This document shows positions 33,245 through 47,093 of a stretch of 64,000 nucleotides of DNA, piece by piece. Origin of the DNA: Nitrospirota bacterium (lineage in GTDB: Bacteria; JACPQY01); NCBI GenBank assembly GCA_016180645.1, contig JACPAV010000018.1, positions 1 to 64,000 on the forward strand. The letters are read 5' to 3'. The translations under genes were made by a program, and so were the position numbers. How positions within the stretch are numbered: position 1 is the stretch's first letter; each line of letters opens with the position of its first letter. The notes beneath the pieces were generated by a model. It did no database searches. It saw only the letters and a program-made list of their open reading frames with translations, and was not told where the DNA came from.

Positions 33245-33628
33245 TCAATGAATCTCCGGCGAAAGAAACGCCTTCTTGAAGGCCGTTACCTTCGCAGGGT
33301 CTTGCCTGACGAATTCCACATCGTCCGTGTCCAAGTAGTACACCGCCTCTCCATCTTCCCGGATGATCCCAGCTTGCAGGGCCTCGCCTCGATTCCGGGC
33401 AATCCAAACGTGCTCATCGAAAATCCCAGACCATATGCGGTGGGCCAGTGGCCGAGCCTGAGCATCCAATTTCCGTTCACAGACGGGGGACCTGGCCGCG
33501 TTATGGTGAAGCTGGCACATCCTTGGATCGCTTTTTTCGCTTGTTTCGCATCTCTCGATGGGACCAGTCGGGTGGGCAGGTAGTAGGCCAATCCCTCTCA
33601 CCTTCCGAGCGATGTCCAAGTACCCCAT
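33245..33628 (-). CDS. hypothetical protein of the replication module
   Basis: 127 residues. It contains possible metal ligands in R-M-C-Q-L-H-H-N and S-P-V-C-E-R (a C-x3-H-x8-C type cluster), then aromatic/acidic strands (DGEAVYYLDTDDVEFV). It lies 55 bp downstream of the helicase gene on the same strand. No family recognised, but its composition is protein-like and its position suggests an element replication accessory. Confidence 0.5.
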   Translation of the reverse strand: MGYLDIARKVRGIGLLPAHPTGPIERCETSEKSDPRMCQLHHNAARSPVCERKLDAQARPLAHRIWSGIFDEHVWIARNRGEALQAGIIREDGEAVYYLDTDDVEFVRQDPAKVTAFKKAFLSPEIH

Positions 33629-33683
33629 TTCCGGATCTACCGCCCCTGCGAAAAATGCGAAATATGCGAAAGAAGGCTCCCCG

Positions 33684-35003
33684 TCACCGTGCGAACCACC
33701 TTTCAGCCGTCCTGCCTGCCGTTACGGAGCTTGTCCGCGAGACCAAGCTATGCGAGAGCAGCAGTGCCAGTGCTGCGTCGATTTGGCCTTCAGAGCGGTG
33801 TCGCCCGAACAGGGCGTGGATTTCCGTTCGGGTCATCCCTTCCTGAATGGTCCGGAGAGAGCGATAGATGGTGTCTGCGTCCGGATCACCCAGCGAATCT
33901 CCGAAAATGAATCGGGCGGAAGCCTCGGCGTAGTCCCAGACAGCCAACGCCGCCTCCAAGTGGGGGCGGCGAATGATCCCTGATCCGTCCAGAACCGCGT
34001 ACAGACATGGCAGCCGCAGCACATGCGCCTCGGCCCGGGCGCAGATTGCGCCGAATAGGCCCGGCCGGTCGGCGGAAAGAGTGGGATATACCTCCGCCCA
34101 AATTCGTCGTGATTCCTCATCCCTCCGGATCTCGTCGAACGTACGCGCAAGCTCCAGGGCCGACCCGAATCGGGTCGCGAGCGGCCGAAGGGTCTCCTCG
34201 TCGAGTGTTCCCCCATCCGGCAGCAGCTTGGAGCGCCGCACACAAAGCCACATGAACCGATTTGCGAACCCATTTGCAATTTCAGTCCGCGTCAACTCAC
34301 GTCGAACTTCCTCGGTCGTGACGTGCCCGATAATCGAGACGTGTGCTCCCGTCGCCCTCAGCGGGCTGTTTTTGGTCAGCGTCCGCAAGACGTCGCCATC
34401 CCACGCCCTGCGCACTATGGGCGATAGGGTATTGCCCTCCCTCGCGATGACGCGGAGCAACGAGGCGAATTCAGGTTCAACGATGAGAATCCTCTTGTCG
34501 TTGACCCCTGGATCATCGACGACCAATTCGCCCTTCACGCATTTCTCCGTCGCGTCGCGTACGTGAAAGATCAGCCCCTCACCGCTCGACAGTCCACTCG
34601 CGATTCGGCCTGCCTCCCAACCTTCGTCAGCGTACTTCATCACCTGGCGCACTCGACCTAGAGACGTGCCCTTCCGTGCTTTTGAGGTCCTCCCCACTAG
34701 CACGGCAAATTCATTCAGTCCGTGGCGGGTACCCTCGACTACGAAGTGTGGTTTCGGCCCGAGCGCGTTGCCAAACCCCAAGAGAATCTGGAGGAGGAGA
34801 GCCACCGAATCGGCTTCGGTGTGTGGTTCGACGCTACGAACAAAGTCACCGGCAAGTCCGTGGAGTGCCGCGCTGTCGAGCGTCGGCCACGGATGATCTC
34901 TTTTCGCCGCAGGGGTCTTGATCCCGATCGGATCATCGAGGAGTTCTCCGATCCGAGCAGTCGCGCCGGATTTCGCGAGCAGATCGTCGGTGCGGCTGGT
35001 CAC
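33684..35003 (-). CDS. DUF3987-type replication helicase/primase-associated ATPase of island 1
   Basis: 439 residues. The sequence A-V-L-V-G-R-T-S-K-A-R-K-G-T-S-L (about 99-114) is the modified P-loop of DUF3987 proteins. I-L-I-V-E-P-E-F-A-S-L-L (Walker B-like), T-G-A-H-V-S-I-I-G-H-V-T (sensor-like), E-I-A-N-G-F-A-N-R-F-M-W and a C-terminal winged-helix-like region (MTRTEIHALFGRHRSEGQID) follow. Such proteins drive autonomous replication of phage-like elements. It overlaps the upstream 82-residue gene by ATGA. It is equivalent in position to 41265-42710 in island 2, though the sequences differ. Confidence 0.75.
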   Translation of the reverse strand: MTSRTDDLLAKSGATARIGELLDDPIGIKTPAAKRDHPWPTLDSAALHGLAGDFVRSVEPHTEADSVALLLQILLGFGNALGPKPHFVVEGTRHGLNEFAVLVGRTSKARKGTSLGRVRQVMKYADEGWEAGRIASGLSSGEGLIFHVRDATEKCVKGELVVDDPGVNDKRILIVEPEFASLLRVIAREGNTLSPIVRRAWDGDVLRTLTKNSPLRATGAHVSIIGHVTTEEVRRELTRTEIANGFANRFMWLCVRRSKLLPDGGTLDEETLRPLATRFGSALELARTFDEIRRDEESRRIWAEVYPTLSADRPGLFGAICARAEAHVLRLPCLYAVLDGSGIIRRPHLEAALAVWDYAEASARFIFGDSLGDPDADTIYRSLRTIQEGMTRTEIHALFGRHRSEGQIDAALALLLSHSLVSRTSSVTAGRTAERWFAR

Positions 35004-36615: not shown

Positions 36616-36652
36616 TTGGGAAGCAGATGCTCTGCCCCTGAGCTACACCCGC
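36616..36652. other. tRNA-Gly 5'-half remnant: attachment site between islands 1 and 2
   Basis: 37 bp identical to 2560-2596, on the same strand, but the adjoining sequence does not complete a tRNA. It marks the right end of island 1 and the left end of island 2. Confidence 0.85.
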
Positions 36653-36703
36653 CTTACTGTGATTTCAAGGAGTTAGCCTACCGCCGTTTTCGGGGCTTCG
36701 TCA

Positions 36704-38275: not shown

Positions 38276-39526
38276 CTATCCAATCATCAAACTGCGTTCA
38301 TGTCGAACCTGGGCAGACTGGGCACGACTGGACCGCATTAGGGGCGCCTGGGCTACCATGGTCCCGACCTTCGGCACGCAAATTCTGTCTCCTGAGTAAA
38401 CGTCCAAGCGCTTAACCGCCTCGGCCTTGTGTTCGTCCCCGATGTGCGCGTAAACTTCCACCATCTCCAAGCTACTCCATCCGCCAAGCTCCATCAAGGT
38501 CTTGATCGGCACCCCGGCCATGACAAGGCGACTCGCCCACGTATGCCTGAGGGAATGCCACACCACGCCGTCAAGGGTCACTTTCTCAAGGTCGATCCTT
38601 TCGGCCCCCTCCCCTTCCCCGATCCTGTAGAACTTCGCGCCCTTGTTCCGGGCCTCCGCAACCTTCGCGGCCAGGTCCCGGACCGCAAGCGTAAACCTGT
38701 GTGACATGAAGCTACCGCAATGCCGGAATATCCGGTCATCATCCAGGAAGTGAACCTTCAAGGCATCGCTCAATAGCGCGTGTACCGTGTCGTTCATGGG
38801 AACCGCGCGGGGCTTGCCGCTCTTGGTGTGTTCGACGTAGATGATCCGCTTTTCAAGGTCCACGTCCTGCCGCGTGAGTCGCGCCGTCTCCCCCAGCCTC
38901 AATCCGGTGTGAAGGCTGAACGTGATGACGGGCCGGAGCCAGCCCTCGGCATGGTGGAGGATCAAGGCTTCCTCTTCCGGCGAGAGGAATTTCAAGCGGC
39001 CTTTCTTCTCCAGCTTCAAGAGTTTCACCGCCGGGAACGGGGTTGAATCCAGCCTGCCGTGAGACTTGGCCTTGTTCAGCACCCGCCGCAGCATGGCGAG
39101 CCAGTGATTCACGCTCGGCCTTCCGTACCCTTCATCAACTTTGATCTGCTTGAATGCCTCCACGTCCGCCGGTGCTATCTCGCGGATGTCCTTCTCCCCG
39201 AAATGCTTTCGGAGTTCCTTCAAGCAGAACACGTCCCGCGTGTATGCCTTCAAGTGAATGCGCGAGTAGTTGAGCCACTCATCGGCCAGCATGTTGAACG
39301 TGGTCACAGGCTCCGGGACAATCGCGGCCAGCCTCTCCCACGGCCTTTCACCCGCCTGGACCTTCCCTTTCAGGTCGTCCAGAATCCCGATCGCCGTCTC
39401 AATCGTTCCGGCCTCATGCCGCTCAAGAATCCTCTCATGGTACTTCCTTCCAAGGTCCGGGTAGCGAACGAGAAACCGGCCGTCCGGTAACTGCCTCACG
39501 CCCTTGTACCGTTTGATCTTCGGCAT
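38276..39526 (-). CDS. int: tyrosine recombinase / integrase of island 2
   Basis: 416 residues. Catalytic residues: Arg in HTGLRLGETA (210), Lys near 235 (EHTKSGKPR), H-S-L-R-H (324-328), G-G-W (348-350) and Tyr in E-V-Y-A-H (359). It has an N-terminal arm-binding region and a SAM-like domain (about 75-165). It is preceded by GGGGGCAGGTAAG. It differs from the island 1 integrase, yet the flanking att cores show that both use tRNA-Gly(CCC). It lies 1.6 kb inside the att core, with the HEPN operon between. Confidence 0.92.
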   Translation of the reverse strand: MPKIKRYKGVRQLPDGRFLVRYPDLGRKYHERILERHEAGTIETAIGILDDLKGKVQAGERPWERLAAIVPEPVTTFNMLADEWLNYSRIHLKAYTRDVFCLKELRKHFGEKDIREIAPADVEAFKQIKVDEGYGRPSVNHWLAMLRRVLNKAKSHGRLDSTPFPAVKLLKLEKKGRLKFLSPEEEALILHHAEGWLRPVITFSLHTGLRLGETARLTRQDVDLEKRIIYVEHTKSGKPRAVPMNDTVHALLSDALKVHFLDDDRIFRHCGSFMSHRFTLAVRDLAAKVAEARNKGAKFYRIGEGEGAERIDLEKVTLDGVVWHSLRHTWASRLVMAGVPIKTLMELGGWSSLEMVEVYAHIGDEHKAEAVKRLDVYSGDRICVPKVGTMVAQAPLMRSSRAQSAQVRHERSLMIG

Positions 39527-40875: not shown

Positions 40876-41157
40876 GTGCCCACCGCCCGATTTGAAGTCG
40901 TCATCCCGTCTGCAATTCTTGAAGTGGTGGACGCCTGGGAGAAGAACGCGAAAGCCCGGTTCATCAAGGCGTGTCGGCTTGCCTCCGTCGATCTGTCCCA
41001 TCCCTCTCTACACGCCAAGAAGGTCACTCTCCACAGTGGTGAACCGGCCGTCCGATGCAGGATAGATGATCTGCACCGAATCCATTTCAACCCACCCACC
41101 GGAGGGCAATTGAGAATCAGAGAAGTCGGTGGCCACCGCTTGGAGGGGATCGGGTAG
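40876..41157 (+). CDS. RelE/ParE-like small protein
   Basis: 93 residues from GTG 40876. F-E-V-V-I-P-S-A-I-L-E-V-V-D-A-W-E-K-N, then A-V-R-C-R-I-D-D-L-H-R-I-H-F and R-I-R-E-V-G-G-H follow the helix-plus-beta-sheet order of RelE-superfamily toxins (central R-x-R ... R-I and terminal G-H). Overall similarity is weak. It ends 10 bp before the iteron array. Confidence 0.5.
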   Translation: MPTARFEVVIPSAILEVVDAWEKNAKARFIKACRLASVDLSHPSLHAKKVTLHSGEPAVRCRIDDLHRIHFNPPTGGQLRIREVGGHRLEGIG

Positions 41158-41166
41158 CTCATTTCA

Positions 41167-41328
41167 GTGTATCGACCACCCCGAAGTGTATCGAGTGGTG
41201 TATCGAAACCCCTTCCCCCCTCTTTCCGATACACTCGATACACCAAAGCATGAAATCGACGTAGTTAGAAGCACTTAGGTGGTGTATCGGTTGGTGTATC
41301 GGACCCCGCCAGTGTATCGAGTGTATCG
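41167..41328. repeat. iteron-like array of GTGTATCG, candidate replication origin
   Basis: Nine exact copies of GTGTATCG in 162 bp: forward at 41167, 41186, 41198, 41282, 41294, 41312 and 41321; inverted at 41227 and 41236. Neighbouring copies within the subclusters start 9-19 bp apart (12 bp in two of the pairs). The array overlaps the last 20 codons of the helicase, where it encodes the repeated D-T-L and D-T-P. Repeats next to a replication helicase are the usual form of an iteron origin. Confidence 0.75.
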
Positions 41329-42710
41329 GTTTTGGGGGGTAGAGGGTACCGGGCGAGAACGTCCGCAAGTTGATCCATTGTCACCCGGAAACGCTTTCCT
41401 TGTTTCGTTCGTCCCTTGCCCTTGAATCCCAGCCGCGTCAGCTCAGCCCCGAACGCACCCGATTCCGCCCTGAAGTTCCGTTCCCCCGGCTTAGTACCAA
41501 AGTAGGCCGCCAGTTGGCCGGGATAGATCACGCTTTCGGCATCGGTCGCAAGATCACGGAGAGCAACAAGGGTGTTTTCAGTTCGCTCGCTCATGCAGTT
41601 CCCCTCCCCGTGCGTCTCCCTCGCCTTTTCTTCAAGAGTCTCCCGGGTTTTGAACTCCGGCGCGTCCGCTTGGACGCAATCCGCTATTGCAAAGAGGGGC
41701 CGCCAGAGTTCACGGGCACGGCCCACAAGGAAGGCCGGGGCGGTGTCCGCGTCATTGGCTTTCGTCACGTCCCGGAACCGGCTCAGGGCCAGGATGTAAA
41801 GCAGGTCCCGCGCCTCGGCCAAGTCGCCGATGATGTCCCGAACACCTCGGTTCAGCCGGTCCCGATCCTTCCCCCGCTGCATGAGGATTTCGACCGTGCG
41901 AGAACTGGTAACATCCCCGATTCCACGGATTCCCGCGAACGCCTTGGGCGAGTATGCGTTGAACCACGCCACATGGTCCTTCCCTTCGCCGACCATCCGC
42001 AATGCCCACGCTTCCTGCCGGTATCCGCTATTGACCAGAGGCATGATTTCGGACTTTTCATCCTTGCCCCAATTTTCCAGGTCATCGAAAAGAATCGTTG
42101 CCCCCGTCGCATGGACCAGGCGGTACAGGACCGCCGCGCTCACGCTCTCGCTCTTGATCGCGTTGAAGGCGACTGCCGCAAGGAATTCTTCCAGCTTGCT
42201 CTTGCCCGTCGCCATTCCGCCCAGGATGTTGAGGTACGGGAACCCCGGAAACAGGCGGTAGAAGTACGTCCCGATGACCCACGCTGCGATCAGGACGTGC
42301 ATGGATTCGGGGGCGTCGAAGAGATACCGGGACATCGTGACGATCCGGCCCGTGATTTTCTTGAAGTCGCCCTTCACCCCGCTCTTGAAGGCGTGGATAG
42401 ACTCCGTGCGCCAGCGGTTGAGAAAACCGTGTCCCTCGATCTTGGGAAGGACGCTCGCGGTGTAGCTGTGGGCGGCCAGGTCCGCGTGGGGGATCACTTC
42501 ACCGTGTGAGGTGACCAGGTGCCACACGGGGGGCTTCCCGGCGGGGCCGGGTAGCGCGACCGAAAGACACGCGAAGTCGTTTTCAAAGTGCAGGGCGGGA
42601 TGGATGATCTTCGCCCGGATCATCTCCGCGGCCCCGTTCGGGCGCATGAGGCGTTCAACCTTCTCCGTCGCCCCGCTCTCGCGGAGGAGGGTTTCAAGAT
42701 GTTCGCTCAC
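41265..42710 (-). CDS. replication helicase/ATPase of island 2 (DUF3631-like)
   Basis: 481 residues. Walker A is in NILGGMATGKSKLEEFL (about 160-176) and Walker B is A-T-I-L-F-D-D-L-E-N-W (about 205-215). R-I-V-T-M-S-R-Y-L-F-D upstream is typical of element helicases. The C-terminal part (ALRDLATDAESVIYPGQLAA, L-T-R-L-G-F-K-G-K-G-R-T-K-Q-G-K-R-F) resembles DUF3631. It overlaps the upstream 82-residue gene (4 bp). Its last codons lie within the iterons, so the protein probably acts at its own 3' end. Confidence 0.8.
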   Translation of the reverse strand: MSEHLETLLRESGATEKVERLMRPNGAAEMIRAKIIHPALHFENDFACLSVALPGPAGKPPVWHLVTSHGEVIPHADLAAHSYTASVLPKIEGHGFLNRWRTESIHAFKSGVKGDFKKITGRIVTMSRYLFDAPESMHVLIAAWVIGTYFYRLFPGFPYLNILGGMATGKSKLEEFLAAVAFNAIKSESVSAAVLYRLVHATGATILFDDLENWGKDEKSEIMPLVNSGYRQEAWALRMVGEGKDHVAWFNAYSPKAFAGIRGIGDVTSSRTVEILMQRGKDRDRLNRGVRDIIGDLAEARDLLYILALSRFRDVTKANDADTAPAFLVGRARELWRPLFAIADCVQADAPEFKTRETLEEKARETHGEGNCMSERTENTLVALRDLATDAESVIYPGQLAAYFGTKPGERNFRAESGAFGAELTRLGFKGKGRTKQGKRFRVTMDQLADVLARYPLPPKTDTLDTLAGSDTPTDTPPKCF

Positions 42711-42955
42711 AATGACCCTCGCTCCAGGGCGGTGTTGAACGCCGCTACCTTCGCCCGGAGCGGCAGCTCGCGCCAGGCGCGGAGATCATTATCCGCTTTC
42801 TCGGAGAAGTTCTGTGCAAGCGAGAGTGACAGCGTATCATCTCTCATGCGCGTCTCGGCGTGTTTGAGGGCTTCGCGCATTGCGTTGCGTTCATCGAGAA
42901 GATCCCGCTCGCGGTCGCGGCACCACTCAGCGAACAGCGGAGCGACTTCCGGCAT
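42707..42955 (-). CDS. small helical protein upstream of island 2 helicase
   Basis: 82 residues (MPEVAPLFAEWCRDRERDLL ... LPLRAKVAAFNTALERGSL). It has the same length, position and C-terminal pattern (L-P-L-x-x-x-V-x-x-F-x-x-x-L-x-R-G) as 35000-35248 in island 1. It overlaps both neighbours. Confidence 0.6.
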   Translation of the reverse strand: MPEVAPLFAEWCRDRERDLLDERNAMREALKHAETRMRDDTLSLSLAQNFSEKADNDLRAWRELPLRAKVAAFNTALERGSL

Positions 42956-43232
42956 CGCCCGCTCCCTCGCTTGTTTTCTGATTGCGCTTCACCGGGGGGC
43001 CGATTTTCAATTCGCCGGACACGATGCGGGCGAGGTCGCTTTCTCGAAATCTGACGGCGCGGCTCCCGATTCGGACCGGCTCAATTGGAAACCGCCCGGC
43101 GGAAACAAGATTTCGCACGGTGCCGCCGGATAGTCCGATCATCTCGCCGGACTGGGGGTAAGTGCGTAGTCGATCCGTCACTCGAACACCTCCTGTGTTT
43201 CTGGTAATTTCACCGAAAGGATTGTCATTCAT
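42927..43232 (-). CDS. AlpA-family DNA-binding protein of island 2
   Basis: About 101 residues from ATG 43232 (alternative GTG 43250). R-L-R-T-Y-P-Q-S-G-E-M-I-G-L-S-G-G-T-V-R-N-L-V, then GRFPIEPVRIGSRAVRFRES, D-L-A-R-I-V form the AlpA-type winged helix. It is a probable regulator of excision and of the replication genes downstream, which it overlaps. Confidence 0.8.
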   Translation of the reverse strand: MNDNPFGEITRNTGGVRVTDRLRTYPQSGEMIGLSGGTVRNLVSAGRFPIEPVRIGSRAVRFRESDLARIVSGELKIGPPVKRNQKTSEGAGDAGSRSAVR

Positions 43233-43329
43233 GCGCCCATTTTCGCGCACACCCCCATTTCTGAAAAGCAGCGTGGAAAAATGTGGGAGGAGATAAGGTC
43301 AAATCCCCCCTGATTCCAACCGTCCGCGG

Positions 43330-45129: not shown

Positions 45130-45226
45130 GGCCATGGCATCCGGGCAACCCTTCAAATCCGCTCCCGACCAGAATTCTCCCTCCCTTCGGAACGTCTGAT
45201 CGGAATTCAGGCAAAGTTCTCGCGCG

Positions 45227-45298
45227 ACCCCCTGGACGGAATCAAGCCGGGGGGCGTGTCGGTTTTCCGACTCGGATGCTTCCACCGATGCCCCGCCG
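45227..45298. repeat. 72-bp direct repeat, copy 1
   Basis: Matches 46592-46663 at 71 of 72 positions. It contains the perfect hairpin GTCGGTTTTCCGAC. It lies between the XRE gene and the convergent membrane-protein gene. Confidence 0.85.
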
Positions 45299-45308
45299 CG
45301 CGCGGCTG

Positions 45309-45932
45309 TCACCGCCCAACGCCGCAGATGCCAGGGTACATCATCCGACAATCCTCCAGCGTCGCGTGCCGGACGGGGGCGAGCCACAAGCCCAGCCCAA
45401 ACGCCAGCAGGACGGCCACCCAAATACCCCACTTGCGTACCCGCCCCGACAAAGGCAATTTGCCCACACCCGAAAGCGCACGGAGATCATCGTGCAGGTA
45501 GGCAGATTGGACGAAGTCTAGAGTAACAAGCTGGAAGAGGTTGAAGGCTATCGATTCTTCGAACCGGCTCCCTGTTTCAGAAATCCCCGCTCGAAATTGT
45601 TTGACCACCCCATCGAGGACGGAGGCAGTGTCAAGCCGCCAGAAGCGCCAGTCATAGGCATGGCCCCGGGTGCTGGCCAGGACACGGGACGCGACCTCGG
45701 CCTCTTCGCGATTAAATGCCGCGACGTGACCGTAGATGGCGGCCCGGATCTGGGGAAGCTTCTGTTTTGCCATGTGAGCAGTTACCAACTCACGATATTC
45801 CGTGCCCGCGAATTGGGCGGAAAGTTGTCCAACCGATACGTCGCGGATTGCCATCCTGGACCGGATGTGATCTTCAGGGGAGACGGACTCACGGGAGGGT
45901 ATGTGCTCTGCCCAAGGAGTTGAATCGATCAT
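45309..45932 (-). CDS. hypothetical protein with one C-terminal membrane helix
   Basis: 207 residues. The soluble helical N-terminal region (about 1-165) has A-E-V-A-S-R-V-L-A-S-T and F-N-L-F-Q-L-V-T-L-D-F. A single membrane segment (WGIWVAVLLAFGLGLWLAP, about 170-188) and a short tail with two Cys follow. It looks tail-anchored. Family unknown. Membrane-anchored proteins of this type are sometimes abortive-infection effectors, but nothing here shows that. Confidence 0.55.
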   Translation of the reverse strand: MIDSTPWAEHIPSRESVSPEDHIRSRMAIRDVSVGQLSAQFAGTEYRELVTAHMAKQKLPQIRAAIYGHVAAFNREEAEVASRVLASTRGHAYDWRFWRLDTASVLDGVVKQFRAGISETGSRFEESIAFNLFQLVTLDFVQSAYLHDDLRALSGVGKLPLSGRVRKWGIWVAVLLAFGLGLWLAPVRHATLEDCRMMYPGICGVGR

Positions 45933-46525: not shown

Positions 46526-46591
46526 AAGATCAAGAATATCACGCCATCCTGTTCGGTTCAACGCGGGAAAAATGGCTGAAGTTTCCGTGCA

Positions 46592-46663
46592 ACCCCCTGG
46601 ACGGAATCAAGCCGGGAGGCGTGTCGGTTTTCCGACTCGGATGCTTCCACCGATGCCCCGCCG
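46592..46663. repeat. 72-bp direct repeat, copy 2
   Basis: 71 of 72 positions match 45227-45298, on the same strand, about 1.3 kb away. It flanks, together with copy 1, the membrane-protein and RelBE genes. Confidence 0.85.
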
Positions 46664-46795
46664 TTCGCACCGGTCGGCACGTGGGTGCATCCCACCGCCT
46701 CGGTCGATTCGCACTTCATCCGCGCGGAAGAAATCGCGCCACGGGCTTGCAATCGCATTTTCCGTATGGCGCGAAAATCCCGGCCGGAAATTCCG

Positions 46796-46931: not shown

Positions 46932-46968
46932 TTGGGAAGCAGATGCTCTGCCCCTGAGCTACACCCGC
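46932..46968. other. tRNA-Gly 5'-half remnant: right attachment site of island 2
   Basis: 37 bp identical to 2560-2596 and 36616-36652. This is probably the original 5' half of the chromosomal tRNA-Gly gene, pushed 44 kb away by the two insertions. Confidence 0.85.
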
Positions 46969-47071
46969 CTTACTCGGTCAAGCTTCCGCGATGCGGTGCC
47001 ACTCGTCAAGGGCGTAGGGTGTCGCCCACCTGGCTCAGGGACAACGGAATGAACTCCATTCGGTCCTGGCG

Positions 47072-47093
47072 CTGCCCCTGAGCAACACCCGCG
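47072..47093. repeat. degenerate tRNA-Gly 5' fragment
   Basis: CTGCCCCTGAGCAACACCCG plus CG differs from the tRNA 5' end at one base. It may mark an older integration event at the same tRNA. Confidence 0.55.

Follow-up and report, generated by a model that had tools for sequence, protein, structure and literature searches.

Genes and repeats of island 2

The window, by which we mean the whole 64,000-nucleotide stretch of DNA analysed here, contains integrative elements that have accreted in tandem behind a tRNA-Gly(CCC) gene (2525-2596), the series extending over 2525-46974. Two elements lie in a row, island 1 (2.6 to 36.6 kb) and island 2 (about 36.6-47.0 kb). Island 2 is flanked by a 43-bp perfect direct repeat that matches the 5' half of the tRNA gene and a few preceding bases, with identical att copies at 36616-36658 and 46932-46974 (both minus strand), which gives an element of about 10.3 kb. 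It encodes a tyrosine integrase (38276-39526, minus strand; family profile match), so that an integrase and flanking att repeats derived from a tRNA gene mark it as an integrative element. A diverged att copy lies at 47069-47092, a 97-bp repeat (90% identical) occurs inside the island at 45214-45310 and 46579-46675, and a broken relative of the integrase is found on another contig (G000:C21:16116-16574) as pieces of 81% and 69% identity.

The minus strand of island 2 also carries an operon with three genes in the order HTH - 82-aa protein - helicase. The first encodes an HTH_17/AlpA-like excisionase or regulator (42927-43250, family profile match), the second (42707-42955) overlaps the helicase start and has a homologue in island 1 (34% identity), and the third encodes a 481-aa helicase (41265-42710). 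Island 1 shares this gene order, and its helicase has no BLASTP similarity to that of island 2. An analogous mirror array lies in island 1 at 33535-33671, just 3' of a DUF3987 helicase gene (33684-35003, minus strand), with the words TTTCGC at 33535/33544 and TGCGAAA at 33647, 33656 and 33665, 9 bp apart. On the far side of the island 2 helicase is a plus-strand gene (40876-41157) which a sequence-only reading of this DNA had called RelE-like, an unsupported label, as its product has no match in Pfam, PHROG or NCBIfam.

The iteron array

Beside that gene, and running into the helicase 3' end, lies an array (41167-41328, no strand assigned) with nine exact copies of GTGTATCG in 162 bp, seven on the plus strand (starts at 41167, 41186, 41198, 41282, 41294, 41312 and 41321) and two on the minus strand (41227 and 41236). 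Purines flank all nine words on both sides, extending the repeat to RGTGTATCGR. When the whole window was shuffled, GTGTATCG occurred on average 0.69 times and at most 4 times per 64 kb. The rest of the 4.72-Mb genome contains 62 further copies, scattered, with no second cluster anywhere in the genome, and from the genome-wide count only 0.002 copies would be expected by chance in 162 bp. These counts uphold the sequence-only reading, which had described seven direct and two inverted 8-mers as far above chance and had regarded an equal density elsewhere as fatal to its proposal of a replication origin.

Four of the copies (41282-41328) fall within the final 65 nt of the coding sequence for the helicase, with spacings of 9, 18 and 12 nt and in a single codon phase (xxC GAT ACA C), so that the helicase C-terminus reads KTDTLDTLAGSDTPTDTPPKCF with D-T repeats; the array does shape the last codons, as had been noticed. 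Could it then be a coding tandem repeat, generated by slippage of D-T codons and devoid of any function as DNA? The four in-frame copies are what such slippage would leave. However, the remaining five copies are intergenic (41157 to 41265), two are inverted, not every spacing outside the gene (19, 12) is divisible by three, and relatives have arrays on both sides of the stop codon (see below), so that we find this explanation scarcely credible.

The two inverted copies pair with the last two direct copies in a perfect 18-bp inverted repeat, with arms at 41226-41243 (CCGATACACTCGATACAC) and 41312-41329 (GTGTATCGAGTGTATCGG; neither arm is assigned a strand), each holding two iterons 9 bp apart; longer, imperfect arms extend over 41208-41243 and 41312-41347. 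Between the 18-bp arms are two more iterons and a 38-bp spacer (41244-41281, no strand assigned). Its A+T content of 58%, where the window as a whole has 41%, puts it at the window's 98th percentile and makes it a candidate melting site. The perfect arms and a folding z-score of -5.9 would also suit a stem-loop origin recognised by its structure rather than by the word, after the model of pRN1, whose stem-loop origin is found just 3' of a replication gene of homologous type (PMC4234260). It is difficult to see, in that case, why all nine copies keep the same word when five of them lie outside the perfect arms, or why the relatives, too, preserve a word, one that varies with the wing of the protein (see below), and we judge a stem-loop origin very unlikely.

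The helicase

At default thresholds the helicase has no sequence match in Pfam, PHROG, NCBIfam or PDB, sequence profiles lead to no solved structure, and no close homologue was found in genome contigs, viral contigs or one other genome of the phylum. Its score against PF12307 is 16 bits (E 0.014), below the gathering cut-off of 24; a PF12307 profile scan of the genomes of 41 relatives gave no match, and neither did the controls. Translated searches, on the other hand, match replication proteins of small plasmids (Streptomyces DUF3631, Thermus, Deinococcus, Sulfolobus pXZ1 and Acinetobacter) and of phages. Identity to the DUF3631/RepAM superfamily is 19-25%, and an alignment of 41 sequences (40 relatives and the window helicase) has 13 invariant columns. 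Walker A (GGMATGKS, residues 164-171; 42198-42221, minus strand) is kept, with G169 and K170 invariant across all 41, as are the Walker B aspartate, arginine R271, the W/P/AD motifs and a C-terminal R-Y. Judged by these alignments, the helicase is a distant member of the DUF3631/RepAM superfamily.

An AlphaFold model (mean pLDDT 78) shows an AAA+ core and, towards the C-terminus, a winged helix (residues 375-455; 41346-41588, minus strand), with its wing at residues 431-444, that we infer to be the iteron-binding domain. Foldseek matches the model to SaPI PriRep1, SV40 T antigen, papillomavirus (BPV) E1, AAV Rep, MCM and ASFV PrimPol, with E values of 1e-5 to 1e-3 and TM-scores of only 0.2-0.4. 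The helicase thus models as an AAA+ ATPase of the initiator type whose C-terminal domain is a winged helix, in keeping with the proposed origin. The model also bears on the mode of replication, since a nicking, rolling-circle origin is reported as predicted for RepAM of pMEA300 from nick-site similarity (PMC3218068). A rolling-circle origin in island 2 seems to us extremely improbable: the protein models as an AAA+ ATPase with a winged helix, matches no nicking-endonuclease family in Pfam, PHROG or NCBIfam, and is accompanied by mirror iteron arrays that fit theta initiation.

Arrays at the helicase gene ends of relatives

Because the host phylum offers only two genomes, distant relatives of the helicase were examined, encoded at 26 viral and 80 genomic loci. 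The search had no preset word and accepted any 8-mer repeated within 250 bp near the helicase gene end; one locus was taken per 70% identity cluster, leaving 62 non-redundant relatives, whose loci also supplied 730 further pieces of 800 bp as controls. At least four copies were found at 28 of 62 gene 3' ends and in 11 of 730 control pieces (p about 1e-25, where pieces from one locus are not fully independent), and at least five copies at 17/62 gene ends versus 2/730 controls. Clustering at 50% identity left 23 usable representatives, ten of them with arrays. The other 34 of the 62 relatives fall short of four exact copies at the gene end, and no strong 3'-end array is present in the Thermus, Deinococcus, Sulfolobus or PhiF3 relatives. 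The hosts, as labelled in the records, include Actinobacteria, Proteobacteria, Acidobacteria, Verrucomicrobia, Chloroflexi, Bacteroidetes and others.

The word varies from locus to locus and mostly has the form CCG-NN-AC, for example CCGCTAC, CCGCAAC, CCGCCAC, CCGTCAC, CCGTGAC, CCGTAAC or CCGAAAC. Streptomyces DUF3631 members have TCCGCNACA arrays at the same place, and the window word, CCGATAC / CGATACAC, fits the same form at the gene 3' end. Inward-facing mirror halves, with the first copy forward and the last reverse, occur at 16 of 27 diverse loci (p=0.0002); at L068, for instance, the two halves lie at -261, -253, -210 and at -186, -142, -134. These arrays are found on both sides of the stop codon and keep a codon phase, 44:14:4 for reverse copies (p<1e-8) and 26:14:9 for forward copies (p=0.009), so that the putative origin is translated into S-A-T, V-A-D or D-T-P tails. 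An A+T-rich spacer was also expected in relatives, and this expectation failed, the mean excess being only 0.017.

The window's own word was sought separately, in a blind scan of 2.9 million viral contigs that looked for pairs of GTGTATCG within 13 bp and of which the first 120 loci were examined. These contained 15 clusters of at least four copies, of which 14 lie inside a replication gene or within 60 bp of its end, counting L174 and L175, which were placed by their likeness to L133/L159. The genes involved encode DnaD-like loaders or initiators, a primase and a DnaB-like helicase. A control word, the letters of GTGTATCG reversed, gave ten clusters and none in a recognised replication gene, two of the ten having no long ORF nearby and one being judged by likeness (14/15 versus 0/10, p=3e-6; 1e-4 once relatives are collapsed). 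DUF3631 helicases had been expected at these viral loci, and profiles found them at 0 of the 80 loci checked among the 120; the clusters are those of initiators from other families, and the word therefore recurs, to our surprise, in unrelated initiators. Eight DnaD-like phage initiator genes (L133, L137, L139, L148, L159, L213, L224 and L236) carry GTGTATCG arrays with 11-12-bp spacing within their coding sequence, an apparent convergence. At three further loci, a large phage primase-helicase gene is followed immediately, on its 3' side, by a three-copy, two-orientation cluster of a different 8-mer; the gene was assigned to phrog_2249 by scan at L288 and L216 and by layout at L313.

Covariation of the wing and the word

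If the winged helix reads the iteron, the two should change together. In 40 Streptomyces relatives whose arrays read CCGCTAC, CCGCAAC or CCGCCAC, mutual information, compared over all columns of the protein, peaks in the winged helix, at the residue two positions ahead of K-G-Y. Valine at this position accompanies T at the variable base, threonine accompanies A and phenylalanine accompanies C, with one exception, L048, which has a mixed array. On a tree built from the ATPase part only, valine versus base T gave eight independent contrasts, of which 6.2 agree and none is opposite (median p 0.03), and proline, leucine or methionine at the next residue versus C at the first variable base gave six contrasts, five in agreement and none opposite (p 0.06). 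The same pairings appear outside the Streptomyces clade, P/L/M occurring with C in 9/9 versus 6/17 (p 0.0024); for V with T the figures are 3/4 versus 3/22 (p 0.028). This wider test is only partly independent, since the wing column had been picked after the Streptomyces data were seen and the scan was the same.

The covarying residues map to the wing tip of the modelled window helicase, TKQG at residues 435-438 (41397-41408, minus strand), which does not conform to the pattern common there, xx[KR]G[YF]; AT-type words occur in two loci only, the window and L065, too few to decode AT. As read from these sequences, two variable bases follow two wing-tip residues in the relatives, and the part of the protein predicted to read the word changes together with it.

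Might the array, bound by the same helicase or by the HTH protein, serve not initiation but copy control, incompatibility or autoregulation? The iterons of known plasmids serve both initiation and these forms of control, and mixed orientations fit regulation too. On the other side, some 2 kb separate the array, which is at the operon's far (3') end, from the operon start, no promoter-like site was found in 40.8-41.7 kb, and the covariation points to the helicase itself. We therefore consider a purely regulatory array unlikely.

A model for initiation in island 2

The best reading of the array remains the one first proposed from the sequence, a putative replication origin of island 2, now joined by the island's att repeats and integrase and by relatives from many phyla in which other arrays occupy this position and vary in step with the winged helix. 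From sequence and structural model, we think it very probable that the array is the iteron origin of the 10.3-kb tRNA-Gly island, bound by a self-loading AAA+ helicase. In this scheme the helicase, encoded immediately upstream of the array, would act as its own loader and initiator. Its winged helix would bind each RGTGTATCGR word, and the two variable bases in CCG-NN-AC would be read by the tip of the wing. Several bound copies would seed ATPase rings, perhaps two, one on each of the inward-facing array halves; the A+T-richer 38-bp spacer would then melt, and the excised circle would start replication there, presumably in both directions.

We lean, with less assurance, towards a wider proposal, in which the origins used by a very large family of mobile-element helicases follow a single design, a CCG-NN-AC mirror array within the 3' end of the helicase's own gene, with two bases read by two wing-tip residues. 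A change of code would alter replication compatibility, the iterons of an array all changing at once, and the S-A-T, V-A-D and D-T-P tails would be translated origin. A family still listed in Pfam as a "domain of unknown function" would thereby gain an origin and an initiation mechanism open to testing, along with a two-residue/two-base recognition code and an explanation for the repetitive C-terminal tails of these helicases. The proposal also predicts theta-type, helicase-led initiation where rolling circle was proposed for RepAM.

Comparison with known systems

An origin inside the gene for its own initiator is familiar from lambda O. The DnaD-like phage initiators with GTGTATCG arrays resemble it in this respect, and both resemble the window in having an origin or iterons inside the initiator gene; however, these proteins are loaders rather than helicases, and their arrays lie in mid-gene, unlike that of the window.

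The AICE RepAM/DUF3631 proteins of actinomycetes (pMEA300 type) belong to the same superfamily, and the Streptomyces arrays occupy the same place, although the window helicase falls under the PF12307 cut-off and the published prediction for RepAM is rolling circle. In the literature searched, DUF3631 and replication are mentioned together only in that same paper, PMC3218068, whose accessible part describes no 3'-end iteron arrays.

Closer in layout are the SaPI/PICI replicons. Bench work supports binding of iterons 3' of their own genes by the C-terminal domains of SaPI Rep and SCC Cch2 (PMC7581432, PMC6092414), and in the SaPI/PICI origin two iteron sets flank a possible melting site (PMC6092414, PMC7581432). 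The window has the same arrangement, with iterons directly 3' of the gene for a putatively self-loading helicase and two sets flanking an A+T-rich region, and PriRep1 is among the Foldseek matches. It differs in that the array overlaps the coding end, the helicase is of a different sequence family, and the spacer of its relatives is not A+T-rich. A non-systematic look at the island showed no terminase or phage-satellite features, and no PICI genes (rpr, terS, capsid) were among the island proteins matched to families.

The other close parallel is pRN1, where bench work places the origin just 3' of the gene for a helicase with a C-terminal winged helix, ORF904 (PMC4234260); the Sulfolobus plasmid pXZ1 is a tblastn match of the window helicase. 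The pRN1 origin is a stem-loop without iterons and ORF904 has a fused prim-pol, both unlike the window. The principle was already known from SaPI and pRN1; in the openly readable literature the array embedded in the gene's 3' end and the wing code look undescribed, and, as far as we have seen, it is the family-wide form that is new.
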